DNA of 64,000 nt, taken from Microbacterium oryzae (GTDB lineage: Bacteria > Actinomycetota > Actinomycetes > Actinomycetales > Microbacteriaceae). Below, one piece after another: positions 26,802 through 42,643 of the stretch; position 1 is the first letter of the stretch, and each line of letters starts with the position of its first letter. The DNA lies in assembly GCF_009735645.1 (NCBI RefSeq), contig NZ_CP032550.1, positions 2,170,001 to 2,234,000 on the forward strand. The letters run 5' to 3'. A program made the position numbers and the translations under genes. The notes beneath the pieces were generated by a model that ran no database searches, had not been told where the DNA came from, and saw only the letters and a list, made by a program, of their open reading frames with translations.

Positions 26802-26807
26802 GGAAGG

Positions 26808-28103
26808 GTGACCGCCGCGACCGACGCCCCCCGCGCTGCCGAGCGGAGCGCCGAGGTCGCCCCGCCGATCAGCCCGCAGGATCTGCGGCGCGACGTCCTG
26901 CTCGCCGGAGCCCTCTTCGTGGCCGCCGTGATCAGCATCGCCCTCGCCACGCTCTCTGGCTCGTTCCTCTCCACGCCCGAGAACGCCGGCTGGTCGCTGC
27001 TCGCGAGCGCGTTCATGACATTGCCGCTCGCGCTGCGCCGACGTCTCCCGATCGGCACCGCCGTCGTCGTGTGCAGCGCCTATTTCGTGGCGGCATCGCT
27101 GCAGTTCACGGAGCTGTACGTGAGCCAGGTGGCGATCTTCATCGCGATGTTCACCGTCGGAGCCTGGGTCGAGGACCGCCGACGAGCAGCGCTGTCCCGC
27201 GTGCTCATCATGGTGGGGATGGCGCTGTGGCTGCTCGTGTCGACGTTCACGGGAGCCACGGACGCCGACCATCTGGAGGAGAACTTCGCGGGAGCGCTCT
27301 CCCCGTACGTCGCCTACATGCTGCTCATGTGGCTGATCAACGCCGCCTACTTCGGCGGCGCGTACTACATGGGGAATCGGGCCTATGCCGCCGCCCGCGA
27401 CCGCGCGGTGCTGCAGCGGCGCACGCGCGAGCTGGAGGAGGAGCGCGAGCTCACGGCCGCGCAGGCCGTCGCGCTCGATCGCGTCCGCATCGCGCGGGAG
27501 CTGCACGACGTGGTCGCCCACCACGTCTCCGCGATGGGCGTGCAGGCGGGCGCCGCCCGGACCGTCCTCGACCGCGATCCGGAGTCCGCACGCCGAGCGC
27601 TCGCGGTGGTGGAGGAGTCCGCACGCTCGGCGATCGCCGAGCTGCGGCACCTGCTCGACACGTTGCGCTCTCCCGACGGCGACCCCGACTTCGCCGAGGG
27701 AGCGCCGTCGACCCTGAGCCTGACCAGCCTCTCCGAACTCGCCGAGGCGATGACCGCGTCGGGGACGCCGACGCGTCACGTCGTCGTCGGCGAGCCCGCT
27801 CCCGTTCCCGACATCGTGCAGGTGAACCTGTACCGGATCGCGCAGGAGGCTCTCACGAACGCCCGCAGGCACGGCGGGCCGGAGGCGCGCGCCGAGGTGC
27901 GCGTCCGCTACACCCGGGATGCGGTCGAGCTCGAGGTCACGAACACCGGTCGGATCGCCCTCGGCGCCCGCCCCGGTCTCGGTCAGCTGGGCATGCGCGA
28001 GCGCGCCATCGCATCCGGCGGCGTCCTCGAGCTGCACGCCCGAGAGCAGGGCGGCTACCGCGTGCGGGTGACCGTTCCCCTGCACGCGGGAGCAGAGTCA
28101 TGA
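26808..28103 (+). CDS. Sensor histidine kinase (HisKA_3, DesK type)
   Basis: 431 residues. It has a short hydrophilic N-terminus, about five membrane helices (to ~residue 190), a coiled segment, phospho-acceptor box 'RIARELHDVVAHHV' with His near 233, and HATPase N-box 'ALTNARRHGGPEARAEV' with 'LGQLGMRERAIASGG'. The GTG at 26808 is set by the -10 box 6 nt upstream; the longer upstream frame has no coding look. The stop overlaps the response-regulator start. Confidence 0.92.
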   Translation: MTAATDAPRAAERSAEVAPPISPQDLRRDVLLAGALFVAAVISIALATLSGSFLSTPENAGWSLLASAFMTLPLALRRRLPIGTAVVVCSAYFVAASLQFTELYVSQVAIFIAMFTVGAWVEDRRRAALSRVLIMVGMALWLLVSTFTGATDADHLEENFAGALSPYVAYMLLMWLINAAYFGGAYYMGNRAYAAARDRAVLQRRTRELEEERELTAAQAVALDRVRIARELHDVVAHHVSAMGVQAGAARTVLDRDPESARRALAVVEESARSAIAELRHLLDTLRSPDGDPDFAEGAPSTLSLTSLSELAEAMTASGTPTRHVVVGEPAPVPDIVQVNLYRIAQEALTNARRHGGPEARAEVRVRYTRDAVELEVTNTGRIALGARPGLGQLGMRERAIASGGVLELHAREQGGYRVRVTVPLHAGAES

Positions 28104-28940: not shown

Positions 28941-29966
28941 TCAGGAGGCCGCCCGCACGGACGCGAGGCGCGCGGCGGCGGGGTGCGGGATCCAGCCCCG
29001 GCCGACGGCGAGCACTCCGGCCTGGAATCGGCTCTCGGCGCCGAGCATCTCGAACAGGGTGGCGATGTGTCGGCGGCAGGTGCGCACGCTGATGTCGAGA
29101 CGACCGGCGATCGCCTCGTCCGTCAGCCCCATGCTCAGTCCGGAGAGGATGGCCGACTGCACCGCAGTGAGCCCGTGTCCATCGCCGACGCGGGTCTCGT
29201 CCTCCGCATGGAACGGGGAGGCGAACTCCCAGGCCGCGTCGAAGACCGACACGAACGCCGCCACCACGTCGGGCGCCCTGATGACGAGGGCTGCGCGGTC
29301 GTCCGCGTCGCGCTGCCGCCCCACGAGTGCCAGTGAGCGGTCGAAGATCAGCATGCGGAAGGGCACCACCGGGAGTGTGCGGAACCGGGCGCCGAGCGGC
29401 TCCAGCTCTGCGACCGTCCGCTGCGTCGGGATGTGGTCGCGCCGCCGGTCGTGATACAGCGTGCGACGGGCGACACCCTGCGCCAGCAGCTGCCTGTCCT
29501 TCTCGTTCGACTCCTCGTGCCGCTCCACGCTGCCGCTGGCGCCGGGTTGCACGATGAGCACTTCGCGCGACACGCGCCGCCCGATGTCGACGAGAAGGCG
29601 CATGACCGTCTCCGGGTCCTCGACGACCTCGACCTGCGCATCGGTCGCCGCTCCCTCCCTGGCTCGGCGATACGCCGGCAGCAGCGCCATCAGCTCGTTG
29701 CGCCGATGCGCCACCGACGAGCGCAGCTCGTGGATGCGCCGTTCATCGGCGTCGACGAGCTCGGCGAGCGCGACGTCCGGTGCGACGGCGACGAGCGTCG
29801 CTTCGCCCCCGTGCGGCTGCACGAGCAGTCGGCGCTCGCGCAGCTCCTCCCGAGCGGCCTCGAGATCGCGCAGTCGGACGCCCAGGTCCATCGACGCGGA
29901 CTCGATCGTCCAGTCGTCGTGCGCGCACACGTAGAGATACAGGTCCGCCGCGTGTTCGCTGAGCAT
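28941..29966 (-). CDS. LuxR-type HTH regulator next to RiPP cluster (TrmB-like N-terminus)
   Basis: 341 residues. The N-terminal part looks like a TrmB-type winged helix ('LYLYVCAHDDWTIESASMDLGVRLRDLEAAREELRERRLL') followed by a phospholipase-D-like effector region ('EVLIVQPG', 'RTLYHDRRRDHIPTQR'). A LuxR HTH sits at about residues 270-325 ('SGLSMGLTDEAIAGRLDISVRTCRRHIATLFEML'). Stand-alone regulators of this build are frequent beside lanthipeptide and thiopeptide clusters of actinobacteria. It has its own promoter (TAGGAT at 29991) and a GAGGGGAG ribosome site. It probably controls the RiPP operon ending at 30023. Confidence 0.8.
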   Translation of the reverse strand: MLSEHAADLYLYVCAHDDWTIESASMDLGVRLRDLEAAREELRERRLLVQPHGGEATLVAVAPDVALAELVDADERRIHELRSSVAHRRNELMALLPAYRRAREGAATDAQVEVVEDPETVMRLLVDIGRRVSREVLIVQPGASGSVERHEESNEKDRQLLAQGVARRTLYHDRRRDHIPTQRTVAELEPLGARFRTLPVVPFRMLIFDRSLALVGRQRDADDRAALVIRAPDVVAAFVSVFDAAWEFASPFHAEDETRVGDGHGLTAVQSAILSGLSMGLTDEAIAGRLDISVRTCRRHIATLFEMLGAESRFQAGVLAVGRGWIPHPAAARLASVRAAS

Positions 29967-29990
29967 CCGACTCCCCTCGTCGTCCCGTGC

Positions 29991-29996
29991 ATCCTA
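29991..29996 (-). promoter_or_regulatory. -10 box for the RiPP-associated regulator
   Basis: TAGGAT on the minus strand, 24 nt before ATG at 29966, leaving a short leader with a ribosome site. Confidence 0.4.
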
Positions 29997-30022
29997 TCGA
30001 GGGCGGCACCGGGCGACGGGGA

Positions 30023-30175
30023 TCACGGCTGCCAGAGCCGTTCGGCCCACTCGAGGTCACGATGCGCACGCGCCTGCTCGTCGTCTGTGTCGTCATGCCC
30101 GCTGTCGGGATCGAGGTCCGCGTCGGCGGCGGGCCGACCGCGGGGACGAGCGCCCTCGTCTCCCCGGTCAGGCAT
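30023..30175 (-). CDS. Small acidic protein, last gene of the RiPP operon
   Basis: 50 residues, opening MPDRGDEGARPRGRPAADAD and closing DLEWAERLWQP. It is strongly charged, with an acidic Asp-rich centre and a basic/aromatic tail. Its ATG lies inside the end of the upstream membrane protein gene (8-nt overlap), a pattern of translational coupling seen throughout this operon. No homologue is recognised. It could help the adjacent small membrane protein (immunity or export), but that is a guess. Confidence 0.55.
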   Translation of the reverse strand: MPDRGDEGARPRGRPAADADLDPDSGHDDTDDEQARAHRDLEWAERLWQP

Positions 30176-30542
30176 GGCGCCCGCTTCGCGCCGAGACGAC
30201 CGCCAGCACCGCCATCTCGACTGCCACAGCGAGGCAGAAGACCCCGAACACCAGCGCGCCGCCGAGCGCGAACATGGGTGTCATGGCGGCGAGGGCGATC
30301 ATGGGCGAGACCAGCCCCACGACGAGGGCCGGGTCGGGCCGCCCGTGCGAACGGCGTCGCACGAAGCCGACCACGGTCACCGCGGCGGTCGCGACGGCGA
30401 CGAGCAGGACCGCGACGACGAGTCCGAGCGCCTGTGCTCCGGTGAGCAGCAGGGCGGCCAGCCCGGCCCAGCTCGCACTCGCCAGGACGGCGGGAAGCGC
30501 TCCGGAGCCGGCTGCGCGGGCAGCGGAGGTCGATGAGGTCAT
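30168..30542 (-). CDS. Small membrane protein of the RiPP operon
   Basis: 124 residues. Three to four hydrophobic helices with an Arg/His-rich cytoplasmic loop ('VGFVRRRSHGRPDP') in the middle. The ATG overlaps the stop of the SpaB_C gene (ATGA). The position at the end of the operon and the size fit an immunity or accessory export protein. No known family recognised. Confidence 0.65.
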   Translation of the reverse strand: MTSSTSAARAAGSGALPAVLASASWAGLAALLLTGAQALGLVVAVLLVAVATAAVTVVGFVRRRSHGRPDPALVVGLVSPMIALAAMTPMFALGGALVFGVFCLAVAVEMAVLAVVSARSGRHA

Positions 30543-31540
30543 GAGGATGTCCTTTCGTCGGGGGGTCCGTCGGGCCCCGTCTTCTCGCGCTCGGTCGGGC
30601 ACGGCGCCATCCAGTCGCGCGCGTGCATCCCGAGCAGCGCCTCCTCCCTGGGCAGGTATCCCAGGCGGTTCATGAGCATGTGGTTCTGATGGAACGCGAG
30701 ATGCTGCGGCGTGCGCGGCACCGCAAGGGAGCCTGCGGTGGCGAGGTAGTCGTCCATCGCCCGGAACCAGCGTCGACGCCAGGCGTTCACGTCCGGTTTC
30801 GCCGCGACCGCCCGCATGCGCTCGTGCACGACGTGCCGGTGTGCGGACGCGTGGCGCTCGAGGCGGTCCCGCAGCGCGGCCGCGCCGGTGCGCGCGCCGG
30901 TCCACCAGTCGGCGTGCGTCATCCAGTAGTCCCGCCACGACCAGGAGCGGCGCCGCTCCCAGCGCGCGGCACGAGCGCCGTAGCAGAGTGCACCGACCGT
31001 GTCGGCCAGCAGCAGGGCCGCCAGGCCGTCACGGCTGCGTCCCTTCTCATGCTCGCTCACGCCCCACAGCGCGAGCTCCGACGAGAACTCGAACATCTGC
31101 TCGGCGATCTCGACGCCCTCGAGACCGCCGTACTTGTCGATCTCCGGCTCGTAGACCGCGACCCGCTGCCCGACGGTCCTGCGCTCGCTTCCCAGGATCG
31201 CGGCGGCGGCGCCCGGCACGAGTTCGACCTGTCGCGCGCGAGGAGCGGTCGCGATGAGCTCGAGATGCGCACCCAGATCGGTCATCGTCCGGACGAGCCG
31301 GTCGAGGCTGCGCCCGGGTCCGAAGACCCGCAGCCGGATATGCGGCCCGCTCTCATCGAAGTAGCGGATGAAGAACCACCGCGAGGCGCCGAGTGCCCGC
31401 ACCTCGGCCAGCAGCGGTGGGAGGAGTCCGGCGATGACGTCGTCGGCGGCCTCCATGCCGCCGGTGTAGAGGCATGCGTACCACCACTGCGGGGTCGTGG
31501 CGATGTCGTCCGGGTGCGGAGCTGATCCGAAGGTGATCAT
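30539..31540 (-). CDS. Thiopeptide-type bacteriocin biosynthesis protein (SpaB_C / LanB C-terminal domain)
   Basis: 333 residues. 'WWYACLYTGGMEAADDVIAGLLPPLLAEVRALGASRWFFIRYFDESGPHIRLRVFG' is the SpaB_C signature. In split LanB systems, this domain either removes glutamate from glutamylated Ser/Thr to give dehydroalanine/dehydrobutyrine (TbtC, GodG) or performs the [4+2] ring closure (TbtD). Only one such protein is encoded here, so elimination is the required role. The C-terminal ~180 residues ('WERRRSWSWRDYWMTHADWW') are helical. The ATG overlaps the LanB stop (ATGA). Confidence 0.88.
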   Translation of the reverse strand: MITFGSAPHPDDIATTPQWWYACLYTGGMEAADDVIAGLLPPLLAEVRALGASRWFFIRYFDESGPHIRLRVFGPGRSLDRLVRTMTDLGAHLELIATAPRARQVELVPGAAAAILGSERRTVGQRVAVYEPEIDKYGGLEGVEIAEQMFEFSSELALWGVSEHEKGRSRDGLAALLLADTVGALCYGARAARWERRRSWSWRDYWMTHADWWTGARTGAAALRDRLERHASAHRHVVHERMRAVAAKPDVNAWRRRWFRAMDDYLATAGSLAVPRTPQHLAFHQNHMLMNRLGYLPREEALLGMHARDWMAPCPTEREKTGPDGPPDERTSS

Positions 31541-33960
31541 GGGCGCGTCCACGAGAGGAAGACAAGATGCTCGACCGCACGGTGGCCGCCCTCGCGATCG
31601 ACGTGCGGGAACTGCGCCCGACTGGGCAGCGCCTCGGTGATCTCCAGTCCGATGACCGTGTCGTCGATCTCCGCGGCCAGGTGGCGCAGCGCGTGCGGAC
31701 TGCGCAGCTCCACGGGAATGGGCTTGCGCGTCACGGGGTCGAAGCCCGGACGCTCGCGGATGAGGCGCACGAAGACCTCGGGCGGGATGCCGTGCTCGCG
31801 TCGCCATCGTCCTGCTGCCCGCAGCAGTGCGGCGTCGGCGTCGGGGAAGGACGGCAGGAGCTCCCGCGGCACGCTCCATCGCGCTCGCTGAACCACCACG
31901 CTCCCGTCGGTGCGCCGCGGCTCGTCGACGATGCGCTGCGGATCCGAGAGCGTCGGGAACACGCTCGCGCCGACTCGCGGCACCCGCCAGGGGTTCGCGA
32001 GCACAGCGAGGATGCGATCCGGCCCGCTCAGAAGGTGCGACGGCACGAGCCCGAGGTAGAACGGCGCGACAGGCCGCCCCGCCAGGTCGACGAGCTCGAG
32101 GGCGTCAGCGACCGGATCATGGCGGATGGCGAGCGCCGCGACCGCCGTCTCCTCGTCGCCGGCCCTTCTGCAGGGCCCGTCCACGGGCAGCCGCAGGCGG
32201 GGCAGGACGCCGCTCGCGGCCGCCTGCATGCCGTTCACATCCGCCGACGGGACGAACTCCACCGCCCGCGCGCCCGCTGCCAGCCGCCGGGCGCGAGCGG
32301 CCACCCGCGCGGCGATGCCATCCGGGCCGTCGTGCAGGCGGGCGAACCGGGTGGCGATCCCGCCTTGGCCGTCCAGCACCTGGTTGACGACGACGAGCGA
32401 CTCCGGACCGGCGATCTGCACGGTCATCGCGGCCGACGGCATCGGCATCGACGTCCCGCGCGGTCGGTCGGACGCGCTCGCGCGCGGCGCGTGCACCTTC
32501 GACAAGAGCGCCTCGTCGCTGCCGGCCTCCAGAAGCCACGGCCACGCGGACGGCACCGTGGCGCCTGCTCCGTGGCGTGCGACGAAGTGCGCCACGACCG
32601 CCTCGTACGCGGTGGAGCGGCGCACCCGTGCTCCGAGTGCGTCTGCGAAGCGCTCGATCTCCGCCGAGGCGCGCTCCTCCGGACCGGATGCCGCCTCGCC
32701 GGGCGCCGTGTCGACGTACAGCTCGAAGCGGCTGCGGGCCGCACTCGCCCCCCGCTCGCGAAGCGCGCGCTGCGCACGGTCCCGCAAGGAGACGCGGCGG
32801 GTCGCGCGGTCGCGTCCCCGTCCGTCGAGCACACCCTGCGCGCCCTGTACCAGGTCGGACAGCGTCACGCTGAGCGGATGGCCGGGAAGGCGGGTGCGCA
32901 GGTGCTCGGAGAGCACGGCGAGAGCGTCGTGCTCTCCGAGCTTCCACGGCGCGACGACTCGCAGAAGTCCGGAGTCGAGCAGGCGCACGTAGACGGCGAA
33001 CGGGTCCTCTCCGCCGATGATCTCGAGGAGCGCGGACGCGGAGACCCGGCCGACCCGTTGAAGCCGAGCCAGCACCGGCCCTGCCTGCCTGAGATGCACG
33101 ACCGCGCTGCGGCGCCAGATGAACTCGTCGCTCTCGACGAGGACCGGAACCGCCACGGCGTCCGATGCGGGGTCGAGACCCCCGGTGTCGAGGGCCTCGA
33201 CGTCGAAGGCGAGCATCGCGGTCTCGTCGTGCGCGAGGACGTCGAGCCAGGCCGCCGCGTACGCGTGCGTGACCGCCGCGGTCGAGCGAGCCGGCCGCGA
33301 GCCGGCGAGTCCCACGGTGGTGAGTCCCGCGAACGGACTGGTCTTGAGAGCCGCGCGAGTGGCGTAGGCCAGCAGGCTCCGGGCGGCGTGGCGGCCCGGC
33401 AGCAGAGGCTGTCGGCCCGGCGCCGCGGCGAAGTCGCAGCTGGCGTCCGCCACCGCCGACATGAAGTCGTCGTCATCCCGCAGCGCCTCGAGCGCCCGAG
33501 TCGCACGCCGCACACCGGAGGCCGTCGCGGCGACGAGCGCCTCGTCGAGCTCCTCGCAGCGCCGCAGCGCACCGACCCAGGCCTCCAGAGCCGCGGCGTC
33601 CAGGCGATGCCGCTCGAGCGCCCCGTGCACGCGGTCGAGCAGCGGCGGTGCGGGAATCCTGGCCCCCTCGGCACGGGTCGCACGCCGCAGCGCGAGCACG
33701 CCGCGGCGCAGCGCGCGGTCGTCGTCGAGCAGGGGCACCAGCGCATACAGGGCCTCGCTCAGTCGCTCGCCGGTGGCGGCGAGCTCGGCGGCCTGCGCGT
33801 CCAGCAGCGCCGCGAGATCGTCGGCTTCGACGAGCGCGGGAGGCAGCCGCTCCACGGCGAGACCGGCGACCCGGTCGAGCCGCAGCCCGGCATCGGAGGC
33901 CGGGTCCGACGCGGCGACGGGCGCGGCGGCGGCGGGCGCGGAAGTCGAGGACATCATCAT
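31537..33960 (-). CDS. Lantibiotic dehydratase-type protein, glutamylation domain (split LanB N-terminal part)
   Basis: 807 residues. It matches Lant_dehydr_N: 'ATRAALKTSPFAGLTTVGLAG' (a highly conserved LanB segment), 'FELYVDTAPGE', 'ESLVVVNQVLDGQGGIATRFARLH' and the C-terminal 'RWSVPRELLPSFPDADAALLRAAGRWRREHGIPPEVFVRL'. This part transfers glutamate from Glu-tRNA to Ser/Thr side chains of the precursor. The elimination domain is on the next gene, as in thiopeptide and goadsporin clusters. The start is the first of three successive ATG codons, overlapping the M50 gene stop. Confidence 0.92.
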   Translation of the reverse strand: MMMSSTSAPAAAAPVAASDPASDAGLRLDRVAGLAVERLPPALVEADDLAALLDAQAAELAATGERLSEALYALVPLLDDDRALRRGVLALRRATRAEGARIPAPPLLDRVHGALERHRLDAAALEAWVGALRRCEELDEALVAATASGVRRATRALEALRDDDDFMSAVADASCDFAAAPGRQPLLPGRHAARSLLAYATRAALKTSPFAGLTTVGLAGSRPARSTAAVTHAYAAAWLDVLAHDETAMLAFDVEALDTGGLDPASDAVAVPVLVESDEFIWRRSAVVHLRQAGPVLARLQRVGRVSASALLEIIGGEDPFAVYVRLLDSGLLRVVAPWKLGEHDALAVLSEHLRTRLPGHPLSVTLSDLVQGAQGVLDGRGRDRATRRVSLRDRAQRALRERGASAARSRFELYVDTAPGEAASGPEERASAEIERFADALGARVRRSTAYEAVVAHFVARHGAGATVPSAWPWLLEAGSDEALLSKVHAPRASASDRPRGTSMPMPSAAMTVQIAGPESLVVVNQVLDGQGGIATRFARLHDGPDGIAARVAARARRLAAGARAVEFVPSADVNGMQAAASGVLPRLRLPVDGPCRRAGDEETAVAALAIRHDPVADALELVDLAGRPVAPFYLGLVPSHLLSGPDRILAVLANPWRVPRVGASVFPTLSDPQRIVDEPRRTDGSVVVQRARWSVPRELLPSFPDADAALLRAAGRWRREHGIPPEVFVRLIRERPGFDPVTRKPIPVELRSPHALRHLAAEIDDTVIGLEITEALPSRAQFPHVDREGGHRAVEHLVFLSWTRP

Positions 33961-35096
33961 GCGATCGCTCCGATCAGGAAGCCGACGGTGCGGGCGATGC
34001 CCGCCACCAGCAGTGCGAGGAAGGCCAGGCAGGCCAGGCCGTACCAGACGAAGAAGCGCCGGCGAGCGCTCGTGGTCGCGGCCAGGGCCGGGGTCAAGGG
34101 GAGGCGCAGGACACGGTGCGCGAGGTACGACAGCGCCTGTCCGCGCACGTTGACCTCGCCGACGAGGGCGCACACGGCGTGGTACCCGTCCGAGGGGGTG
34201 ACCGGATTGACGTTCATCACCGTCAGGAGCACCTGGAAGATGAGCAGGAGGAAGGCGATGTCGCCGGCTTCGCCGGGCGCTGTCAGCGCGACCGCGCCCG
34301 TCGCGCCGAACCAGATCTGGTCGTTGACGGGACCGGCGAGGGAGAGGAACGCCCGGGAGCGGCGATCCTGCACCCGGTAGGCGTCGGTCCGGTCGACGTA
34401 TCCGACCGGCATGACGTACAGCATGAGGCCGATCCCCGCCTCGCGCACCGGGACCCGGAGGTACTGGCAGACGAGCGCGTGCGAGAGCTCGTGCGCCGCG
34501 ATCTGAGCGAACACGATCGGGTAGATGAGCCACGCGTGCGCGGGTGGTTGCCATCCGGCCCCCGCTGTCGTCAGGGCGACGGCCCCGACCACGAGGCCGA
34601 CGAGGGCCACAGATGTCCAGATCGCGACGAGCACCGAGCCCGGGACGCTGCGGATGGGGGCCACCGCAGGCTCCAGCACACGTCCCACGGAGCGGGTGAG
34701 CGGCAGCCGCAGGAGGTGCTCGCGGCGCATGAAGCGGGCGACGCCGCGGCGACCGCCGAGGCGCTCCGGTGGCTCAGCGAGGGCCCCCGCCTGGCGCAGA
34801 CCATGGAGAAGACGGGCCAGCCGGTCCTCGACGAGATCCTCCGGTCGTCCGCCGCCGATCTCGGCGGCGAGCTCCGAGCCGGTGCACCGGCCGTCGAGAC
34901 GCGGCAGCAGCGGCACGACATCGCGGCCGACCGCCACATAGCGACCCGACTCGCCGATGAACAGCAGCGGACGCTCGTCGAGTCCTTCGAGCAGCTCGAC
35001 GTCGTCGCGCAGCCGCGGCCGGCACTCGCGGAACCAGGCGACAGGCGCCGACTCGGCGGACTCCGTCGCCTCGCGGCGGGGGACTGTGGTGCTCAT
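33957..35096 (-). CDS. RRE (PqqD-like)-M50 metallopeptidase fusion of the RiPP cluster
   Basis: 379 residues. Residues ~18-110 resemble a PqqD-like precursor-recognition element ('CRPRLRDDVELLEG' to 'LRQAGALAEPP'). The rest is a polytopic M50 protease with zinc site 'AAHELSHAL' and 'NVNPVTPSDGYHAV' (the NxxPxxxxDG motif). It is the best candidate for the leader peptidase: the recognition domain would hold the leader while the membrane protease cuts. The ATG at 35096 is chosen for the CGAGGA ribosome site. It follows the precursor genes after a 13-bp hairpin. Confidence 0.85.
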   Translation of the reverse strand: MSTTVPRREATESAESAPVAWFRECRPRLRDDVELLEGLDERPLLFIGESGRYVAVGRDVVPLLPRLDGRCTGSELAAEIGGGRPEDLVEDRLARLLHGLRQAGALAEPPERLGGRRGVARFMRREHLLRLPLTRSVGRVLEPAVAPIRSVPGSVLVAIWTSVALVGLVVGAVALTTAGAGWQPPAHAWLIYPIVFAQIAAHELSHALVCQYLRVPVREAGIGLMLYVMPVGYVDRTDAYRVQDRRSRAFLSLAGPVNDQIWFGATGAVALTAPGEAGDIAFLLLIFQVLLTVMNVNPVTPSDGYHAVCALVGEVNVRGQALSYLAHRVLRLPLTPALAATTSARRRFFVWYGLACLAFLALLVAGIARTVGFLIGAIA

Positions 35097-35118
35097 GGAT
35101 TCCTCGATTCGGGGTGAG

Positions 35119-35149
35119 GGGTGCGGTCCGGCCGTGCCGGACCGCACCC
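35119..35149 (-). terminator. Hairpin between precursor genes and downstream enzymes
   Basis: Perfect 13-bp stem (GGGTGCGGTCCGG / CCGGACCGCACCC) with a 5-nt loop, 5 nt after the third precursor stop and before the M50 gene. No T-run. It is placed to act as a partial terminator or mRNA-end stabiliser that makes precursor message more abundant than enzyme message. Confidence 0.7.
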
Positions 35150-35154
35150 GCATT

Positions 35155-35334
35155 TCAGTCGCCGGCGCTGGAGAAGCTGCTGCCCGTCGACGCCGACGAG
35201 GCGGGGCAGGAGGCGGAGCCTCCGGTCGCGAAGGAGCCGGCCGTGGTGAAGCCGGCGGCCACCTGGTTGTCGAGCTCCTCGACCGTGAGGTCCTGAGCGA
35301 AGAGGTCCTGGTTCTCACCGGGAATGTGCGACAT
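35155..35334 (-). CDS. RiPP precursor peptide 3 (thiopeptide/LAP type)
   Basis: 59 residues, opening MSHIPGENQDLFAQDLTVEE. The leader is acidic ('DLTVEELDNQVA') and is followed by a Ser/Thr/Gly-rich core ending GSSFSSAGD. The core holds the shared block SASCPASSAST with the only Cys of the peptide. Ser/Thr would become dehydroalanine/dehydrobutyrine or oxazoles, Cys a thiazole. Good ribosome site (AAAGGA). Sits beside two homologous precursors and all needed enzymes, which is the main evidence. Confidence 0.88.
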   Translation of the reverse strand: MSHIPGENQDLFAQDLTVEELDNQVAAGFTTAGSFATGGSASCPASSASTGSSFSSAGD

Positions 35335-35382
35335 GGTTGTTGTCCTTTCGGTGGTGCGTGTGGTGGTGGTCGGAGTGAGAGG

Positions 35383-35559
35383 TCAGCCGAACGAGGAGGC
35401 GGATCCGCCGGAGCTCGCCGTCGATGCGGGGCAGGACGCCGAGCTGAAGGTGCCGGCGGAGCCCCAGGTGCCCAGGGCCGTCTGCGCGTCGAGCTCGTCG
35501 ATGCCGAAGTCGCCGTCGAGGTCCTGCGCGGTGAGGTCGTCGCGATTCATGTCGGTCAT
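35383..35559 (-). CDS. RiPP precursor peptide 2 (thiopeptide/LAP type)
   Basis: 58 residues, opening MTDMNRDDLTAQDLDGDFGI. The leader carries 'FGIDELDAQTALGT'; the core holds SASCPASTASS and ends SGGSASSFG. One Cys. The leader differs from its neighbours while the Ala-Ser-Cys-Pro-Ala-Ser centre is kept. AAGGA ribosome site 8 nt before the ATG. Middle gene of the precursor tandem. Confidence 0.88.
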   Translation of the reverse strand: MTDMNRDDLTAQDLDGDFGIDELDAQTALGTWGSAGTFSSASCPASTASSGGSASSFG

Positions 35560-35599
35560 GAGGGTTCCTTCTTCGTGAGGGGTGGAGGGATGGGAGGGG

Positions 35600-35779
35600 T
35601 CAGCCGAAGCAGCCGACGGTGCCGAGCGTCGACGCCGACGAGGCGGGGCAGGAGGCGGAGCCGACGGTCGAGCCGCTGCTCAAGGAGGCGAGCGCCGCGT
35701 CGCTGGGCAGCTCGCCCACCTCCAGGTCCTCGATCTCGACGGAGAAGAGATCCTCGCGGGGTGCGTCGTGGTGGGTCAT
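35600..35779 (-). CDS. RiPP precursor peptide 1 (thiopeptide/LAP type)
   Basis: 59 residues, opening MTHHDAPREDLFSVEIEDLE. The leader ('EDLEVGELPSDAALASLSS') closely resembles thiopeptide leaders. The core holds SASCPASSAST and ends LGTVGCFG, giving a second Cys three residues from the end that the other two precursors lack. It is the first precursor transcribed, 34 nt after the dehydrogenase gene, with an AAAGGA ribosome site. Confidence 0.9.
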   Translation of the reverse strand: MTHHDAPREDLFSVEIEDLEVGELPSDAALASLSSGSTVGSASCPASSASTLGTVGCFG

Positions 35780-35813
35780 GATGGTGTCCTTTCTGAGGGA
35801 GGGGTGATGCGCC

Positions 35814-36590
35814 TCAACGAGGCCGGCCCGTGAAGGCCTCGCCGCCGTCGACCGGATGGCCGAAGGAGGCAGCGAACAGCTGCGCGTTCGCGTAGCCGTC
35901 GACGTCGAGGAGCCGACGGAGTCCTGAGGTGAGGAAGCCCGCGAAGGGGCTTCCGACGAGACCGAGCGCGGCGGCCTCGTGCAGGGCGGCCGCGATCGCG
36001 GCGCCGGAGCGGATGTTCACGAGGCGCTCGCCGTGGTCGCCCCAGCGATCGAGGGCGTCAGCGAGGGGCGCCACGGCCATGAGGATCACCGGCGACCACG
36101 CGTACTCGATCTGGAGCACGAGGTCGTCCGCGTCGTCGAGGGGCGCGAGCGGCGTGAAGCCGCCCTCCTCGAGTCGGTAGATCGCGGGAGCGGCGCCGGC
36201 CATCCGCCGGGCGGCGACGATGAGGTCGATCCCGAGGCCTGCCTCCGCCTCGGCCGGCCACGCCGTCGCGTCCGCGTGCCGTCCAGCCCGCACGACCTGC
36301 GCGACCGTCCGCGCTGCGACGGGCTCCTCGCGGTAGAAGCGCACCGACTCCCGGCGATCCAGCACGTCGTCGAGGCTGTCCCCCGGCTGGGACGGCGCCG
36401 CGGTCAACGGGACGAAGGGCAGCTCCACCGGCGCCGCCCCGGTCGTCCGCGGCCGCGAGGAATGGGCACGCGGCCGGGCGGCGAGTTCCGCGGGCCCCTG
36501 GCGGGCGCTGCGCTGCAGCTCCGCGATGAGCGCGTGCTGCGGCGCGAGTCGCTGCAGCGGCGTCGCCCCTGCGGGGGTGGTGGAGGTCAT
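35814..36590 (-). CDS. SagB-type azoline dehydrogenase (nitroreductase family)
   Basis: 258 residues. 'LDDVLDRRESVRFYREEPVAARTVAQVVRAG' has the RRSxRxF-like FMN motif of SagB/nitroreductases; 'AAIAAALHEAAALGLVGSPFAGFLTSGLRRLL' is the C-terminal FMN region. It uses FMN to oxidise azolines to azoles in the precursor. The first ~70 residues are a Pro/Ala/Arg-rich extension. The ATG overlaps the stop of the fusion gene upstream (ATGA). This is the second dehydrogenase of the cluster. Confidence 0.85.
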   Translation of the reverse strand: MTSTTPAGATPLQRLAPQHALIAELQRSARQGPAELAARPRAHSSRPRTTGAAPVELPFVPLTAAPSQPGDSLDDVLDRRESVRFYREEPVAARTVAQVVRAGRHADATAWPAEAEAGLGIDLIVAARRMAGAAPAIYRLEEGGFTPLAPLDDADDLVLQIEYAWSPVILMAVAPLADALDRWGDHGERLVNIRSGAAIAAALHEAAALGLVGSPFAGFLTSGLRRLLDVDGYANAQLFAASFGHPVDGGEAFTGRPR

Positions 36591-38242
36591 CTGCGGCTCC
36601 CTTCGGGGCGGCGCGTCGTCAGCGAGACGACGGCGGTGATCGGCTCGGCATCCTGGTCGATGCCGAGGAGTGCGGCGACGGCGTCGTCATCCCACGCGGG
36701 CGCGACTTCGGTGTGCACGCCGTGAGCGGCGGCCAGCAGGCGGGCCTGAGCGAGCGCGACGCCGGCGTCGAGGTGCACGATGCGCCAGGAGAAGGCCGCG
36801 TACTTCGACGCCACGCGACCCAGTGCTCCCGTCAGCACGAGCACCGCGTCGGCAGACTCCGACACTCCCGCCAGATCGGCGGACGGGTCCGCCCAGGGCA
36901 GCAGCGCGTAGGAATCGTCTCCGCGCTGGTACCCGTACACGCCGGCGGCGAGGCCGTCCACGCGGCGCGCGAGCACATAGGCCTGCACGGAGCCGAGGTT
37001 TCCGCCGGTGGCCGCCCACCGGCGGACCTTGCCCTCGCGCGGCGTGCCCTCGTCGCGATTGCCGGCGGTCCGAGTGACGATGTCCGCCAGCATCCCCGCC
37101 GTGAGATCCGTGGCCGTCGCCGGAGCGGCGGGATCGGGAAGGCCGTCGACCTGCCGGATGGCGGCGCGCTGCGTAAGCGGAGTGGTGGGCGCGCTCGGCC
37201 ACCGTTTCGACTCGCGCTGCAGGACGATGTTCGACTGCTTGTAGTGCACCTGGTGGTCCTTCGGCGAGGCGAGGGACCGCGGTGGGAACGCCGTGGACGC
37301 CTCGAACGCGTACGCGAGCGGGATCCCGTCGGGCGTCGACGAGACGGCGACGAGCCGCTCCTGCACGAGAGTGCGCAGATCCAGCCGCACGAGTGACTGC
37401 TGGGAGGGCACGGCGCCCACGCGCGAGAGCAGTGCGAGCACATCGCCCGCCACCATCGCGGCGGCGAACGCCGGCTCGTCCGTCGGCTCCGCCGTCCCCG
37501 CCTCCGCGTCGATCTGGAGAGCGAGGTCGTCGTAGTGCGGGGTGTACGACGGTTCCACGAACGGGCCGTACAGCAGCTGCTCGCCGTCGAGGCGCACCGG
37601 GTAGGCGCCGGCGCCCTCGGCAGCGGCCGCTGCAGCGGTCCGGCTCAGCAGGGGTGACGCCCCGACGAGCAGGACGAGGGCGCTGTCGACGGCGGTCGAT
37701 CCCGCGTCGACCAGGTCGACGCTGCCCACTCCGCCTGCCGTGAGCTCGGCGGCGATCATCTCGGCGAAGCCCCGTGAGCGAGCGTCGGCGGCCACGACCG
37801 CACGACTGGCGCGGAGGCGCTGCATGGCCTGCGCACCGGACGCGTTCACCCGCGTGGAGTCGATCGTCCGCGCATAGAACGCGATCGCCTGCGGATCGGC
37901 GTCGCCGACCTCGGGAGCGACCGCGCCATCCTCGAGGAGCCCGCTGGCGTACAGCAGCGCGACCGTCGCGTGAGTGTCGGCGAGGGAGCGCCCGGACTCC
38001 GCCGCGAGCTCCTCCAGCCCGTGCTCGCCGTCGAGCAGGGGAATGAGACGGTCCAGGACGGCGGCCGCGGATCTCCCTCCGAGCAGCTGGCGGGTGGGGC
38101 CGCCCTCCACGATCACTCCGCCGTCCGAGGGGACGACGACGAGCCCCTCCGCGAACCGGGGCCGTGACGGGAGCCGGAACTGCGGGTCGCTGAGGGCGGC
38201 GTGGCTCATCGCGACGGCTTCGAGCACTCCGGAGTCAGACAT
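36587..38242 (-). CDS. RRE/ThiF-like leader-binding domain fused to azoline dehydrogenase
   Basis: 551 residues. Residues ~20-105 form the PqqD-like recognition element of ocin-ThiF-like proteins ('FRLPSRPRFAEGLVVV' to 'LLYASGLLEDG'). Residues ~130-240 are a degenerate ThiF/E1-like domain ('QLLYGPFVEPSYTPHYDDL') that lacks the usual CxxC zinc Cys. Residues ~385-545 are a nitroreductase-type domain ('RRWAATGGNLGSVQAYVLAR'). So leader binding and dehydrogenation are joined on one chain. The ATG at 38242 overlaps the preceding gene by 8 nt. Confidence 0.85.
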   Translation of the reverse strand: MSDSGVLEAVAMSHAALSDPQFRLPSRPRFAEGLVVVPSDGGVIVEGGPTRQLLGGRSAAAVLDRLIPLLDGEHGLEELAAESGRSLADTHATVALLYASGLLEDGAVAPEVGDADPQAIAFYARTIDSTRVNASGAQAMQRLRASRAVVAADARSRGFAEMIAAELTAGGVGSVDLVDAGSTAVDSALVLLVGASPLLSRTAAAAAAEGAGAYPVRLDGEQLLYGPFVEPSYTPHYDDLALQIDAEAGTAEPTDEPAFAAAMVAGDVLALLSRVGAVPSQQSLVRLDLRTLVQERLVAVSSTPDGIPLAYAFEASTAFPPRSLASPKDHQVHYKQSNIVLQRESKRWPSAPTTPLTQRAAIRQVDGLPDPAAPATATDLTAGMLADIVTRTAGNRDEGTPREGKVRRWAATGGNLGSVQAYVLARRVDGLAAGVYGYQRGDDSYALLPWADPSADLAGVSESADAVLVLTGALGRVASKYAAFSWRIVHLDAGVALAQARLLAAAHGVHTEVAPAWDDDAVAALLGIDQDAEPITAVVSLTTRRPEGSRR

Positions 38243-38918
38243 GCGCGAGACCCTCCTCGGACACGGCGCCGAATGCGGCGGCGAGGTCGGCCCACGACGC
38301 GTCGGCCCGGGGCGCTCCGCATCGCGCACAGCCGTGCACGGGGATCAGCTCGCTGCGGTGGGTGGTGCCCTGCAGCAGGTGCAGGGCGCGCACGACGTTG
38401 CGCTCGTCATCGAGGTGCCCCGTCCTCGCCTGGCGCGCCACCTGGTCCAGCAGCGCCACGGCGGCCGAGACATGGTGGGGCAGGTATCCGAGCGGGCCGG
38501 CGGTCGCGTCCTCGTCGTAGCGTCGCCACAGCGGCTCGGCCTTAGCGATTCCGGCATCGTGCTGGCGCTGACGACCCTCGAAGCAGCGCTGGCATCCGCC
38601 GGCGGCGTCGGCCGATCCGCCTGATCCTCGCGGGACGACGGTCGGGCCGACACGCAGGCGAGGGTGCGCGAAGACGGCCTGCGTGTACGGCACGCCGGTC
38701 TCGGCCGACGAGCGGTCCACCGCCTCGAGGAGCGCGCGCGACTCCCGCCACGCCACGACGATCCTGAGGTCGGCGTGCGGCCACAGCGACGGATCCACCG
38801 CGACGCGGCCGACGGCGTCGTCGATCCGCACGACGTCCCCCTGAGATCGCAGGGAGGCCGCGAGCCGGGCGGCGACCGCCTGGGCCACGGGGCCGGCCGC
38901 GAGCAGATGCACTCTCAT
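38235..38918 (-). CDS. Ocin-ThiF-like cyclodehydratase partner with Cys4 zinc site
   Basis: 227 residues. E1-like fold without an obvious N-terminal recognition domain. 'LRVGPTVVP' and the zinc pairs 'GCQRC' and 'GCARCGAP' match the C-terminal half of TOMM cyclodehydratase partner proteins (TbtF-like). It works with the YcaO protein to form azolines from Cys (and possibly Ser/Thr). The ATG at 38918 follows AAGGA by 7 nt; an in-frame TTG at 38924 is too close to that site. A GTCT microsatellite lies directly upstream. Confidence 0.85.
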   Translation of the reverse strand: MRVHLLAAGPVAQAVAARLAASLRSQGDVVRIDDAVGRVAVDPSLWPHADLRIVVAWRESRALLEAVDRSSAETGVPYTQAVFAHPRLRVGPTVVPRGSGGSADAAGGCQRCFEGRQRQHDAGIAKAEPLWRRYDEDATAGPLGYLPHHVSAAVALLDQVARQARTGHLDDERNVVRALHLLQGTTHRSELIPVHGCARCGAPRADASWADLAAAFGAVSEEGLAHV

Positions 38919-38930
38919 GTCCAAGTCCTT

Positions 38931-38951
38931 GTCTGTCTGTCTGTCTGTCTG
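38931..38951. repeat. GTCT tetranucleotide microsatellite
   Basis: Five perfect GTCT units plus one base, followed by imperfect copies up to about 38968. It lies in the 59-bp gap between the YcaO stop and the cyclodehydratase-partner gene, just upstream of that gene's ribosome site on the minus strand. Confidence 0.85.
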
Positions 38952-38977
38952 TGTGTCTGCGTCTGTCCGCTCGCCGC

Positions 38978-40330
38978 TCAGGCGAACGGCTGCGGCAGGG
39001 GATTGATGCCGGCCTCGTCGGCCACGGGATAGCCCATCGCCCGCGGCGCCTCGTACAGGCGCGGATGAGCGAGGTAGCGCCCGGTGTGGACGAAGGAGAG
39101 CGGCATGAGCTCCGGAACGATCACCCGCACCACTCGGAATCCGGCGGCCCGCGCCTCGTCCGTCGTGATCTCGACGACGAGCACCTCGGCGCCGATGCGC
39201 TCGAGGCGGGCGACCATCTGCCGCAGCTCCTCGTCGGCGTCCCCGGTGAGCTGACTGGGGATCTCCGAGAGCCGACGGGTGCTGTCGGACCCCGTGAGGA
39301 AGTCGTAGTCGCGGATGCGCTCCGGCTCCCCCATATAGCTGGCGCCGTGGAAGACGGAGGTGAACTCGTCGATGTCATCGGGCCTGCCTCGGGACGCCTG
39401 CATGGCGATGCGCGACGACGCCGACTCGCGCATCATCTTGGCGACGGAGTCGACCGGATCGAGCGAGGTGTTGCACATGACGAGCTGGCCCAGCACCTCG
39501 TTGTCGGGAGTGACGTCCATCGAGTAGAAGGTGGGAACGCCGACGTCGGTGGTGGCGTCGAAGAAGAGCGTCTTCACGTGACTGGACCGATAGCGCTCCG
39601 TGAAGGGGGCGAGGCGCTCGTCCTCGACGTCGATCTCGAGGCGGGGCCACGGGATCCGCTGCAGCCAGGTCAGGGCGATCGAGTCGCGTTCGATGACCTC
39701 GCTCAGGCCGTTGATGACGGCCTGGGTCAGCGAGGTGTGCGTGGCGCATCCGGTCGAGATGGGCATCGTGAAGCGCTCGGCCATGGTGCGCGCGGGGATG
39801 TGCAGCCACGTCGAGACCGCCGGGACGTAGACGGCCCTGCCCCTGGTGAGCGACCAGCCGCGAACCCATCGGATCGGCGCCGCGGTGTCCACCGGTGCGT
39901 GGATGGAGCGCGGATTGCGCAGCTCCGCGTCGGAGCACTGCGGGAAGCGCCGGAGATCGACGGCCTCGTCTCCGAGCTCGTCGCTGCTCGCCCACACGAG
40001 CTGGTCCTCGGGGACGAAACAGGAGGCGTATCGCTCCACGGCCTCGGCGAGGCAGAGACGCGACGCCTTCTCGGCGTCGAGAGCGCCGCCGGCTCCGTCG
40101 ATCTGACCTCGCGTGGAGGCGCCCGCCGTGGACTCGGCGACGTTCGCCGAGAGCGGGGTGAGGTCGCCGATCTGAGCGACGTAGATCGGGAAGCCCGGCT
40201 CGCCCGGATGATTCGGAAGGCGGTCGACCCCGTGCACGACCCCGTACGGACCGACGAGCTGGTCGAGGTCGGCGAGCTTGCCGAGGTCGTGCTGGGCGCC
40301 GGGAGCGGCCGTGGCGGTTCGGAGGTCCAT
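38978..40330 (-). CDS. YcaO-domain azoline-forming cyclodehydratase (TOMM type)
   Basis: 450 residues. 'AESTAGASTRGQIDGAGGALDAEKASRLCLAEAVERYAS' is the YcaO ATP/Mg-binding region; 'ISTGCATHTSLTQAVINGLSEVIERDSIALTWL' is the second conserved block; the chain ends PLPQPFA, the Pro-rich C-terminus typical of TOMM YcaO proteins. It uses ATP to phosphorylate the amide backbone and cyclise Cys/Ser/Thr. The ATG at 40330 has an AAGGAG site; an upstream ATG at 40384 overlapping the permease stop would add 18 residues. Confidence 0.92.
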   Translation of the reverse strand: MDLRTATAAPGAQHDLGKLADLDQLVGPYGVVHGVDRLPNHPGEPGFPIYVAQIGDLTPLSANVAESTAGASTRGQIDGAGGALDAEKASRLCLAEAVERYASCFVPEDQLVWASSDELGDEAVDLRRFPQCSDAELRNPRSIHAPVDTAAPIRWVRGWSLTRGRAVYVPAVSTWLHIPARTMAERFTMPISTGCATHTSLTQAVINGLSEVIERDSIALTWLQRIPWPRLEIDVEDERLAPFTERYRSSHVKTLFFDATTDVGVPTFYSMDVTPDNEVLGQLVMCNTSLDPVDSVAKMMRESASSRIAMQASRGRPDDIDEFTSVFHGASYMGEPERIRDYDFLTGSDSTRRLSEIPSQLTGDADEELRQMVARLERIGAEVLVVEITTDEARAAGFRVVRVIVPELMPLSFVHTGRYLAHPRLYEAPRAMGYPVADEAGINPLPQPFA

Positions 40331-40380
40331 GTGCGCTCCTTGCGAGGCGGAGGTGGGAAGCGGAAGGGGAAGGGAGGAGC

Positions 40381-41424
40381 TCATCGCCGCTCCCCCTGGT
40401 CCCATCGGAAGAGAGCCGTGGCGAGCAGCGCTGCCGCGATGGCGACGCCGGCCATCACCATCCAGGCGATGGGGAGGTTCGCGGCGCTCGAGTCTCCGAC
40501 GAGGTCGACGGCGAGAGCGTCGGCGAGCACAGTCGTCGGCAGCCAGCCGATGACCTCTGCGACCTGCGGTGGGAAGACCTCGAGCGGGATGACCGACCCG
40601 GAGAGCATGAGCGCCACCGGGATGAGCAGCGAGACCACCGTCGTCGTCGCCTCCGCGTTGCCGGCTCGGGAGCCGATCAGGTAGCCGAGGGCGAAGAGCA
40701 TGATGAGTCCGAGCAGCGCCGTGAGGATGAGACGGGGGACGGCGCCGGGGCTGAGGTACCCCAGGGCGGCCGTGACCGTCACCACGAGCGCGAGCTGGGC
40801 GATGCCGAGCAGGAACCGCGAGGGGGTCTGCGCGGCGATGAAGGTCGCGCGTCGCAGCGGCGTCGTGCCGAGCAGGCGCAGCGTGCCCTTCCCACGCAAT
40901 GCGACGACGGGCACCGATGTGCCGAGCATCGCGAGCGTGAGGAAGGAGACCATGACGATCGAGGCGAGACTGCTGCGCAGCGGATCGAAGACCGCGCGTC
41001 CGTCGCTGTACGCGGTGGCGATGTCGGCCTTCGCGATGCCGGTGCCGGCCACGGCGTCGACCAGGCCGCGCCACTGCGGCTCCTCCTCGGCGTCCAGCAG
41101 CACGGTCGCCGACGAGCCCTCGACACTGACGATCGCGGTGGCTTCGTCGGTCGTCCGACCGTCCGGCAGCTCGGAGACGGTGAAGCCGGCTTCCTCGAGC
41201 TCGTTCACGACGGCTTCGCTGCCCGAGGATGCGGTGACCGCGACCACCGGCTGCGGAGACTCCGCGTCGATCGTATGAGCGAGGAACCAGAACAGGCCGA
41301 GGAAGAACAGCGGGAAGAAGAGGATGAAGAACATCGTCTTCCCGTCACGCAGGAGCTCCCGCGCGTTGGTCATGCTGAGTTCTGCGAAGGCCGCGCGCGG
41401 CTGCTTCGTGAGGAGGGCGCTCAT
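40381..41424 (-). CDS. ABC-2 type permease of the RiPP cluster
   Basis: 347 residues. One N-terminal helix, a large extracytoplasmic domain (residues ~55-170), then five C-terminal helices, the YhgE/NatB-like ABC-2 layout. 'LRGKGTLRLLGTTPLRRATFIAAQ' is the coupling helix region. It probably exports the mature peptide or gives immunity. The ATG overlaps the ATPase gene stop. Confidence 0.88.
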   Translation of the reverse strand: MSALLTKQPRAAFAELSMTNARELLRDGKTMFFILFFPLFFLGLFWFLAHTIDAESPQPVVAVTASSGSEAVVNELEEAGFTVSELPDGRTTDEATAIVSVEGSSATVLLDAEEEPQWRGLVDAVAGTGIAKADIATAYSDGRAVFDPLRSSLASIVMVSFLTLAMLGTSVPVVALRGKGTLRLLGTTPLRRATFIAAQTPSRFLLGIAQLALVVTVTAALGYLSPGAVPRLILTALLGLIMLFALGYLIGSRAGNAEATTTVVSLLIPVALMLSGSVIPLEVFPPQVAEVIGWLPTTVLADALAVDLVGDSSAANLPIAWMVMAGVAIAAALLATALFRWDQGERR

Positions 41425-42431
41425 CGGCTCGACCGTCCTTTCCGCTTCTTCCCGCGATCGCTCCGGGAGTCGTAGTCGCTCGTCTCCGCGAGCGCGAGGA
41501 AGACGTCCTCGAGCGTCTGGGCCGCGATCGTGAGATCGCGGGCGTGGAGCCCCAGGGCCGGGAGATCGACGAGGAGAGCGTCGGAATCCGACGTGACCAC
41601 CGTGATCCGGTCGCCGGTGGCCGTGCTCACGGCCTCGACGGAGACGACGGATGGTCGTCGGCGCAGGTTCTCGAGGCTCGCGCCATCCGGAACCGTGAAC
41701 GAGACGCTGCGCTGCTGCGAGCGCTGGCGGATGAGTTCGTCGGGCGCTCCCAGTGCGACGACCGCGCCGTCCACGACGATGGCGACCCGGTCGCACAGCA
41801 CCGTCGCCTCGTCCATGTGGTGCGTCGTGATGAGGACCGTGGTGCCACGCTCGCGGAGCGAGGCGATGAGCGACCACAGGGCCTGACGCGCCGCGGGGTC
41901 GAGCCCCGCCGACGGCTCGTCGAGCACGACGACCTCCGGGTCTCCGATGATCGCGACGCCGAGAAGCAGGCGTCGGCGCTGGCCGCCCGAGAGCTTCTTC
42001 ACGCGGACTCCGGCCTGCTCGTCGAGGCCGATCGAATGGGCGATCTCCTCCACGGGCCGCGGGCCGGCGTGGAACGAGGCGAACAGCCGCAGCGTCTCGG
42101 CGACGGTCAGACTCTCGAAGAGGCTCGCCTCCTGCGGCTGCACGGCGACGCGAGCGGTGAACTCCGCACGATCCGCCGACGGGTCGAGTCCGAGCACCCG
42201 GACCGTGCCCTCGGTGGGCGTGCGCAGCCCGACCAGGAGGTCGATCGTGGTGGTCTTGCCCGCTCCGTTAGGTCCCAGCAGTCCGAAGATCTCGCCGCGC
42301 GCCACCTCGAGGTCGATTCCGGCGACGGCGCGGAATCCGTCGTACGTCTTCACCAGGCCGTCCACGGCGATGACGGGTGCGCCCTCGTCGTGGGGCCTCA
42401 TCGCCTGTCCGGTCTTCTCCAGCGTCTTCAT
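41421..42431 (-). CDS. ABC transporter ATP-binding protein of the RiPP cluster
   Basis: 336 residues. Walker A 'GPNGAGKTT', signature 'LSGGQRRRLLLGVAI', Walker B 'VVVLDEPSAGLDP', H-loop 'TTHHMDEA'. The C-terminal extension is as in DrrA/NatA proteins and ends in a basic tail (RGKKRKGRSSR). The ATG at 42431 has a GGAGGAG site. It is preceded by the small secreted protein gene and followed by the permease (ATGA). Confidence 0.92.
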   Translation of the reverse strand: MKTLEKTGQAMRPHDEGAPVIAVDGLVKTYDGFRAVAGIDLEVARGEIFGLLGPNGAGKTTTIDLLVGLRTPTEGTVRVLGLDPSADRAEFTARVAVQPQEASLFESLTVAETLRLFASFHAGPRPVEEIAHSIGLDEQAGVRVKKLSGGQRRRLLLGVAIIGDPEVVVLDEPSAGLDPAARQALWSLIASLRERGTTVLITTHHMDEATVLCDRVAIVVDGAVVALGAPDELIRQRSQQRSVSFTVPDGASLENLRRRPSVVSVEAVSTATGDRITVVTSDSDALLVDLPALGLHARDLTIAAQTLEDVFLALAETSDYDSRSDRGKKRKGRSSR

Positions 42432-42472
42432 GCTCCTCCTCCGTCCGTCGATCCGGTCGCGACGTCGTCGCG

Positions 42473-42643
42473 TCACCAGTCCCAGATCTGCGCGGCGACC
42501 CGGGCGCCGCCGACGGAGACCTCCACGCTCGCGCTACTCGTCTCGACCGGCGCTTCGGAGGTGGCCGCGAGTGCCGGCGTGCCGACGGCGACGATGCCGA
42601 AGGCGAGAGCGGCGGTGAGGAGGATGCGGGGGGACTTCGACAT
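42473..42643 (-). CDS. Small secreted protein, first gene of the RiPP operon
   Basis: 56 residues. A classical Sec signal peptide (SPRILLTAALAFGIVAVGTPALA, cut after ALA at about residue 26) is followed by about 30 residues rich in Ser/Val that end QIWDW. AAGGAG ribosome site. It is too short to be an enzyme. Position at the head of the operon suggests a role outside the membrane, such as immunity or a partner of the exporter. No family recognised. Confidence 0.7.
   Translation of the reverse strand: MSKSPRILLTAALAFGIVAVGTPALAATSEAPVETSSASVEVSVGGARVAAQIWDW

Follow-up and report, generated by a model that had tools for sequence, protein, structure and literature searches.

Does the cluster for a ribosomally synthesized and post-translationally modified peptide (RiPP) in Microbacterium oryzae make a thiopeptide, as the database name of its precursors would suggest, or a linear azole peptide resembling goadsporin? 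The cluster lies at 28941–42643, with all genes on the minus strand, in a 64,000-nucleotide stretch of a single-contig 3.04-Mb genome (the window; positions 2170001–2234000 of contig NZ_CP032550.1), which has a GC content of 69–75% and in which no tRNA genes were found. An earlier note on this DNA had used both labels. Family scans and a profile of the N-terminal half of LanB (LanB-N) place the YcaO protein, two dehydrogenases, split LanB, ATP-binding cassette (ABC) exporter and LuxR-type regulator on one strand where that note had put them (Table 1). The cluster is real and goadsporin-like, the database label is misleading, and the core grammar and the conserved precursor sets are its notable points.

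All three precursors score above the 25-bit cut-off of NF033482, the NCBIfam model named ‘thiocillin family RiPP’. Their genes look coding, judging from a third-position GC of 0.93–0.97, AGGA-containing ribosome-binding sites and a ratio of nonsynonymous to synonymous differences (pN/pS) below 1 in all nine orthologue pairs computed (0.09–0.84), which bears out the three peptides proposed earlier. For comparison, 16 cluster regions were read for precursors, and L010, L014 and L018 were dropped as near copies of retained ones; L004 and L015 lay outside this reading, and open reading frames (ORFs) in other frames that passed a Ser/Thr/Cys filter were removed by eye. The resulting set holds 51 precursors from 13 clusters (the window, giving three, and 12 others). 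Counted from an invariant Cys-Pro anchor, Ser, Thr or Cys is found at −12, −9, −6, −3 and 0 in 51 of the 51 precursors and at +4, +7, +10 and +13 in 50; the nine period-3 sites form five triplets, a one-residue spacer and four triplets. The sole exception, the fourth precursor of L008, has one residue fewer after Cys-Pro, with its last four sites shifted by one. The peptide ends at +15 in 44 precursors and at +16 in seven.

The same arrangement extends well past this set. There are 555 precursor relatives at E values up to 0.01, ranked by a profile that itself contains the pattern; the best 120 of the 555 comprise 21 near copies and 99 that differ from the 51 in their last 40 residues, and the nine-site grammar is present in all 99 of these non-redundant relatives among the matches listed (891 of 891 cells). 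In the same 99 the residue after each site (X2) is Ser, Thr or Cys in 25 of 891 cells, and the X2 phase of the three window peptides is free of these residues. When the window peptides were shuffled with Cys-Pro fixed, the pattern arose in 0.05, 0.06 and 0.13% of 200000 trials per peptide and in all three jointly in 0 of 200000.

The excerpts of the goadsporin study used here (PMC5303826) state that GodD/E need X1-(S/T/C)-X2 and worked on one to twelve such motifs; E, R, Y and W at X1 were not accepted in vitro, and at X2 R, Y and W were accepted and E was not. Dehydroalanine (Dha) formed at S4 and S14 only when residues 5 and 15 were azoles, the central region may span one to three residues, and the authors expected the triplet rule to occur elsewhere (PMC5303826, same excerpts). 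X1 is E, R, Y or W in none of the 459 cells of our 51 precursors. Read from the peptide sequences, the core grammar is the goadsporin rule extended to nine putative rings, and this grammar is new here. Under the goadsporin rules each window peptide would carry nine azoles and no more than five or six Dha or dehydrobutyrine (Dhb) residues, and the products are most likely linear 29–30-mers with this content. For cores starting at −13 with both termini free, the neutral monoisotopic masses would be 2277.853 Da (precursor 1) and 2298.778 Da (precursor 2), each with nine azoles and five Dha, and 2324.778 Da for precursor 3 with nine azoles and six dehydro residues, or 18.011 Da higher should its N-terminal Thr remain unmodified. 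The azoles and dehydroamino acids foreseen in the earlier note are supported.

The glutamylation-type and elimination-type proteins are encoded separately, which confirms a split LanB. LanB-N has no Pfam or NCBIfam match at E values up to 1; in the PDB, at the same limit, a profile built from it and nine relatives matched GodF (entry 9jhq, 303 bits) and TbtB (entry 6ec7, 134 bits) only. With GodF closest and the triplet grammar in the precursors, the suggestion of a goadsporin-type cluster held. Two further defining features of this type also hold here: a triplet core with a central spacer, and no cycloaddition enzyme over cut-off.

A thiopeptide or pyritide pathway calls for a pyridine synthase (a [4+2] aza-cyclase) besides the elimination protein. 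No protein in the whole genome exceeds the cut-off of the pyridine-synthase model NF045556 (325 bits), for which the Lant_dehydr_C protein of the cluster scores 34.5 bits; the genome encodes one TIGR03891 protein, and it carries elimination residues. For these reasons the thiopeptide reading fails as far as the genes can tell, and with it the ‘complete thiopeptide’ of the earlier note. The name ‘thiocillin family RiPP’ is misleading for these precursors. The relatives give a similar picture: one TIGR03891 protein lies in the cluster in 17 of the 18 genomes with a LanB-N gene (own included), additional TIGR03891 proteins are encoded on other contigs in several of the large genomes, and a pyridine synthase over cut-off was found in 0 of 17 relatives. 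The nearest score among them, 309 bits, comes from Nonomuraea sediminis (the genome of L006), on a contig other than the cluster's.

Alignment with NisB equates Arg786 with R71 and the Arg826 position with K136 of the window Lant_dehydr_C protein; H287 we take to be the counterpart of NisB His961, and we assume the functional roles of these three NisB residues. R71, K136 and H287 are invariant in 17 elimination relatives. The pyridine-synthase-like protein L042:6633–7595 lacks equivalents of Arg786 and His961, reading HLRVYV and YLHLTR there, and the adjoining L042:5869–6633 has both; the aligned proteins of L043, L044 and L046 keep only some of the elimination residues. The L042 pair (5869–7595; N. 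sediminis), an elimination-like protein followed by the near-cut-off pyridine synthase of 309 bits in a separate cluster, is possibly a true thiopeptide-type cluster. An AlphaFold model of the window elimination protein (predicted local distance difference test, pLDDT, of 87) matches MibB (E = 1.4e-8) and pyridine synthases (E = 3e-8 to 3e-6) alike, and the predicted fold was discarded as evidence for this reason.

Both an azoline-forming YcaO and an azoline dehydrogenase are present, the SagB model of the latter scoring below its cut-off. The best PDB matches of the YcaO protein are MusD, LynD and TruD, and its C-terminal PQPFA recurs in 14 of the 16 loci listed, with PQPVA in L015; L039 is not a locus of this type, and its YcaO has a different C-terminus and is only 29% identical to that of the window. 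The two CxxC motifs of the partner protein are kept in 15 of 15 relatives. The ‘ThiF-like’ description of the partner proteins had to be dropped: neither matched a ThiF-named family in the family scans.

The proposed M50 protease with a recognition domain is supported by its PF02163 match, by its HELSH and NPVTPSDG motifs, with HExxH and NPxxPxDG kept in 17 of 17 relatives, and by a predicted fold. In the model (pLDDT 83.5) the N-terminus consists of three strands and three helices and is predicted to fold as a RiPP recognition element (RRE): in the PDB it most resembles RRE proteins from lasso-peptide biosynthesis (lasso B1, template-modelling score of 0.72 by target length, probability 1.00, E = 0.037), with no match at E values up to 0.001. 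The best curated model, that of the daptide protease (NF041824), falls below its cut-off. The M50 gene adjoins NF033482 precursors in nine of ten genomes tested; five of the ten had contributed rows to the M50 profile, and in the remaining five the linkage holds in four and not in G319.

Taken together, the cluster very probably encodes a goadsporin-type linear azole peptide pathway that acts on three different substrates. The partner protein would hold the leader while YcaO converts the middle residue of each X1-(S/T/C)-X2 triplet to an azoline, and the dehydrogenases would oxidize the azolines to azoles, so that each peptide gains nine rings, five on the N-terminal and four on the C-terminal side of the one-residue spacer behind Cys-Pro. 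The GodF-like protein would then glutamylate Ser or Thr at X1, immediately before a ring, and the elimination protein would leave Dha or Dhb; we infer this order of enzymes and these ring and Dha positions. The RRE–M50 protease may remove the leader near a conserved Ala-Leu-(Gly/Ala), the ABC pair would export the 29–30-residue linear products and the LuxR-type protein would regulate the operon. The same gene set recurs in the host family and in Streptomyces, Kitasatospora and Nonomuraea.

Several points weigh against this pathway. Product and masses are predictions from sequence, and the cleavage site is putative. X1 is Phe at −10 in 11 of the 51 precursors and X2 is Pro after Cys in all 51, cases that lie outside the goadsporin tests in the passages used. 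The NisB Arg826 position is Lys in all 17 elimination relatives, and the predicted fold of the elimination protein, which also resembles PbtD/TbtD, fits elimination and pyridine synthesis alike. The stretch fetched for L015 (Amycolatopsis) has no elimination gene, the TIGR03891 matches of that genome lying elsewhere. Neither a GodB-like fusion nor a GodH acetyltransferase, which together would mark goadsporin itself, has a counterpart among the cluster genes scanned. The likeness to the spongiicolazolicins (below) is by description, not by sequence.

The chemotype is a known one, shared by goadsporin, the spongiicolazolicins and nostatin A. As described in the excerpts used, the god cluster of Streptomyces sp. 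TP-A0584 has the same YcaO-type cyclodehydratase, dehydrogenase and split LanB, and goadsporin has X1-(S/T/C)-X2 motifs with a central spacer and Dha before an azole. Goadsporin has six azoles and one precursor, whereas the window has nine triplets and three precursors; it has the GodB peptidase–ABC fusion where the window has an RRE–M50 protein and separate ABC genes, and, unlike goadsporin, the window encodes a separate partner protein and a second dehydrogenase. Spongiicolazolicins A and B, linear azole peptides of 29 and 28 residues from one strain (Streptomyces sp. CWH03; PMC8838263, a review seen in part), are about as long as the predicted window cores and may belong to the same family. 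Nostatin A consists of Dha/Dhb-azole-X tripeptide blocks (PMC11583998, in the portion used), and its 30-residue core, by our own division, yields nine triplets with a Pro in the centre; in carnazolamide eight azoles are joined by eight added Dha, each preceding an azole (PMC10676384, likewise in part). These azole proteusins differ, in the same partial sources, in having nitrile-hydratase-like leaders, a LanM-type dehydratase and an epimerase and not a split LanB. Thiopeptides such as thiomuracin and lactazole share YcaO and split LanB, but the window has no pyridine synthase over cut-off and does encode a leader-removal protease. Passages of PMC10885120, PMC7616364 and PMC7470986 were also drawn on. 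A literature search by title and abstract, which left subscription papers mostly uncovered, found no account of this precursor family. The earlier view that the product is undescribed may hold for the exact sequences, but the precursor family is named in NCBIfam and has 555 relatives, and the chemotype is known.

Why three precursors? Across four clusters from three genera (the window, L036, and L037 with L038 from one genus), all 18 comparisons of the precursors gave reciprocal best matches, and three of these comparisons fall within one genus. Identity under the best one-to-one assignment is 0.72–0.84 (four pairs computed) versus 0.39–0.46 between paralogues within those clusters, and each of the 13 curated clusters has 3–5 paralogues. 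These figures would suit a multi-component system whose three paralogues work jointly, comparable to two-peptide lantibiotics, a proposal compatible with the goadsporin-type pathway. Retained paralogues could, however, serve different targets or conditions; the Streptomyces sets can be assigned only weakly (0.54, with the runner-up at 0.50), reciprocal matches fall to 1–3 between many distant clusters, three order-level genomes have a single precursor match and, in the part of the review used, no antibacterial activity is reported for the spongiicolazolicins (PMC8838263). At one of three clustering cuts, type B and likewise type C fall together with L011 and L017 peptides, a weak grouping. On balance we regard joint action as doubtful, and rather unlikely the specific form in which one enzyme set makes three rigid rods (four or five in other clusters), each with nine rings, a fixed length and its own side-chain faces, that selection maintains as a matched group for a single target.

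A silent or decaying cluster without a product would be in keeping with a patchy distribution. Of 58 genomes, the host's among them, three have a LanB-N match, and one of these matches is weak (E = 1.2e-6); within the genus the count is one of 35 including the host, with 0 of 34 other congeners. NF033482 is exceeded in five of 299 family genomes (one with an internal stop) and six of 198 order genomes. All reading frames of the cluster are open, however, precursor 2 included, and with the pN/pS values given above decay is very unlikely. The cluster looks like an island, gained or lost, because its flanking genes are neighbours in seven of 12 congeners, chosen by us, that were checked. An FMN (flavin mononucleotide) reductase gene at 42942 and a sensor-kinase gene near 26800–28100 are 14.9 kb apart in the window and 0.77–1.08 kb apart in the same orientation in G271, G025, G379, G012, G374, G015 and G373 (identities 49–59% for the reductase and 39–46% for the kinase; orthology presumed from sequence). 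In the remaining five they are 3.1 kb apart (G013), in another order (G007 and G024) or not together (G004 and G008). LanB-N of L036, from the host family, has a start resembling that of the Rathayibacter rathayi protein (P0004). A thiopeptide-type cluster carried by a single R. toxicus population has been reported (PMC7143919, in part) and might correspond to the window cluster.

A pyridine-synthase or bifunctional role for the single Lant_dehydr_C protein, closing a macrocycle and ejecting the leader, would suit the protein's PbtD/TbtD-like as well as MibB-like fold, its weak NF045556 match and the NCBI label of the precursors, but the distance of that match from its cut-off, the elimination residues where the L042 protein reads otherwise, the RRE–M50 gene beside the precursors and the linear nine-triplet grammar make it extremely unlikely. 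Three further candidates gained no support. The daptides of Microbacterium paraoxydans (mpa) also have an RRE fused to an intramembrane M50 protease (PMC10036551, in part), but only the protease is in common, and no daptide decarboxylase, aminotransferase or methyltransferase was matched among the window cluster genes scanned; dehydrazoles follow a LanM route; and the coryneazolisins were judged from their description only (PMC4603692, in part).

Table 1. Genes of the azole peptide cluster in window coordinates, in order of transcription.
Feature	Coordinates	Strand	Evidence
sp56, 56-aa peptide, signal-peptide-like N-terminus, C-terminal IWDW, first operon gene	42473..42643	-	
ABC transporter ATPase, DrrA type	41421..42476	-	PF00005; TIGR01188 231 bits (cut-off 312)
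ABC-2 type permease	40381..41424	-	PF12698, PF01061
YcaO cyclodehydratase, azoline-forming type, C-terminal PLPQPFA	38978..40330	-	TIGR03604 317 bits (cut-off 219)
Partner protein, TIGR03882-like, two CxxC	38235..38918	-	TIGR03882 34.4 bits (slightly below cut-off 36.9)
SagB-type FMN dehydrogenase, long N-terminal extension	36587..38242	-	PF00881; C-terminus TIGR03605 61 bits (under cut-off 78.4)
Second nitroreductase-type dehydrogenase	35814..36590	-	PF00881 30.9 bits
Precursor 1 (type A)	35600..35779	-	NF033482 58.2 bits; triplet grammar
Precursor 2 (type B)	35383..35559	-	NF033482 65.6 bits; triplet grammar
Precursor 3 (type C)	35155..35334	-	NF033482 50.7 bits; triplet grammar
Intramembrane M50 metalloprotease with N-terminal RRE, predicted leader peptidase	33957..35096	-	PF02163; NF041824 129 bits (cut-off 300)
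LanB N-terminal half, predicted tRNA-Glu-dependent glutamylation, GodF-like	31537..33960	-	Profile-versus-PDB match
LanB C-terminal half, predicted glutamate elimination	30539..31540	-	PF14028 125 bits, TIGR03891 94 bits; residue check
124-aa membrane-like protein	30168..30542	-	No Pfam match
LuxR-type helix-turn-helix regulator	28941..29966	-	PF00196 29.3 bits

The single tight operon of the earlier note stands as far as the common strand goes, but the LuxR-type gene is separated by ∼200 bp from the 124-aa ORF, which the note did not name. The regulator has relatives in L010, L011, L017, L037 and L038, and relatives of the 124-aa ORF adjoin the corresponding clusters of L036 and L038, with an ORF in a comparable position in L037. 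The likelier start of the ABC ATPase is an ATG at 42431, preceded by GGAGG. Just past the FMN reductase and outside the island, at 43713–45715 (plus strand), come a further DrrA-like ABC ATPase and an ABC-2 permease, again as a pair. Peptides like sp56 are found at the equivalent place in L037 (2222–2413) and L038 (near 16845, minus strand), ending VWEWDEWE; in three of the host family's four clusters the first operon gene thus encodes a small peptide with a C-terminal W-E/D-W motif, and a profile of three sp56 sequences found no further place with E < 0.04 in 13 genomes, G277/L036 included. A secreted signal or an immunity peptide is a possible role. Over the sensor-kinase gene runs a long open antisense ORF (26787–28085, minus strand), whose reading matches in 12 of 12 congeners searched and is stop-free in nine, a trap for gene finders in high-GC genomes.

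In the clusters examined, then, ‘thiocillin family RiPP’ precursors belong to goadsporin-like and not to thiopeptide pathways, and the label needs correcting. The fixed nine-triplet grammar makes ring positions, Dha positions and masses predictable from sequence, and these peptides are naturally occurring candidates for the triplet rule, whose presence elsewhere the authors of the goadsporin study, in the excerpts used, had anticipated (PMC5303826). The conserved sets of paralogues raise the question of why several near-identical products are made together.

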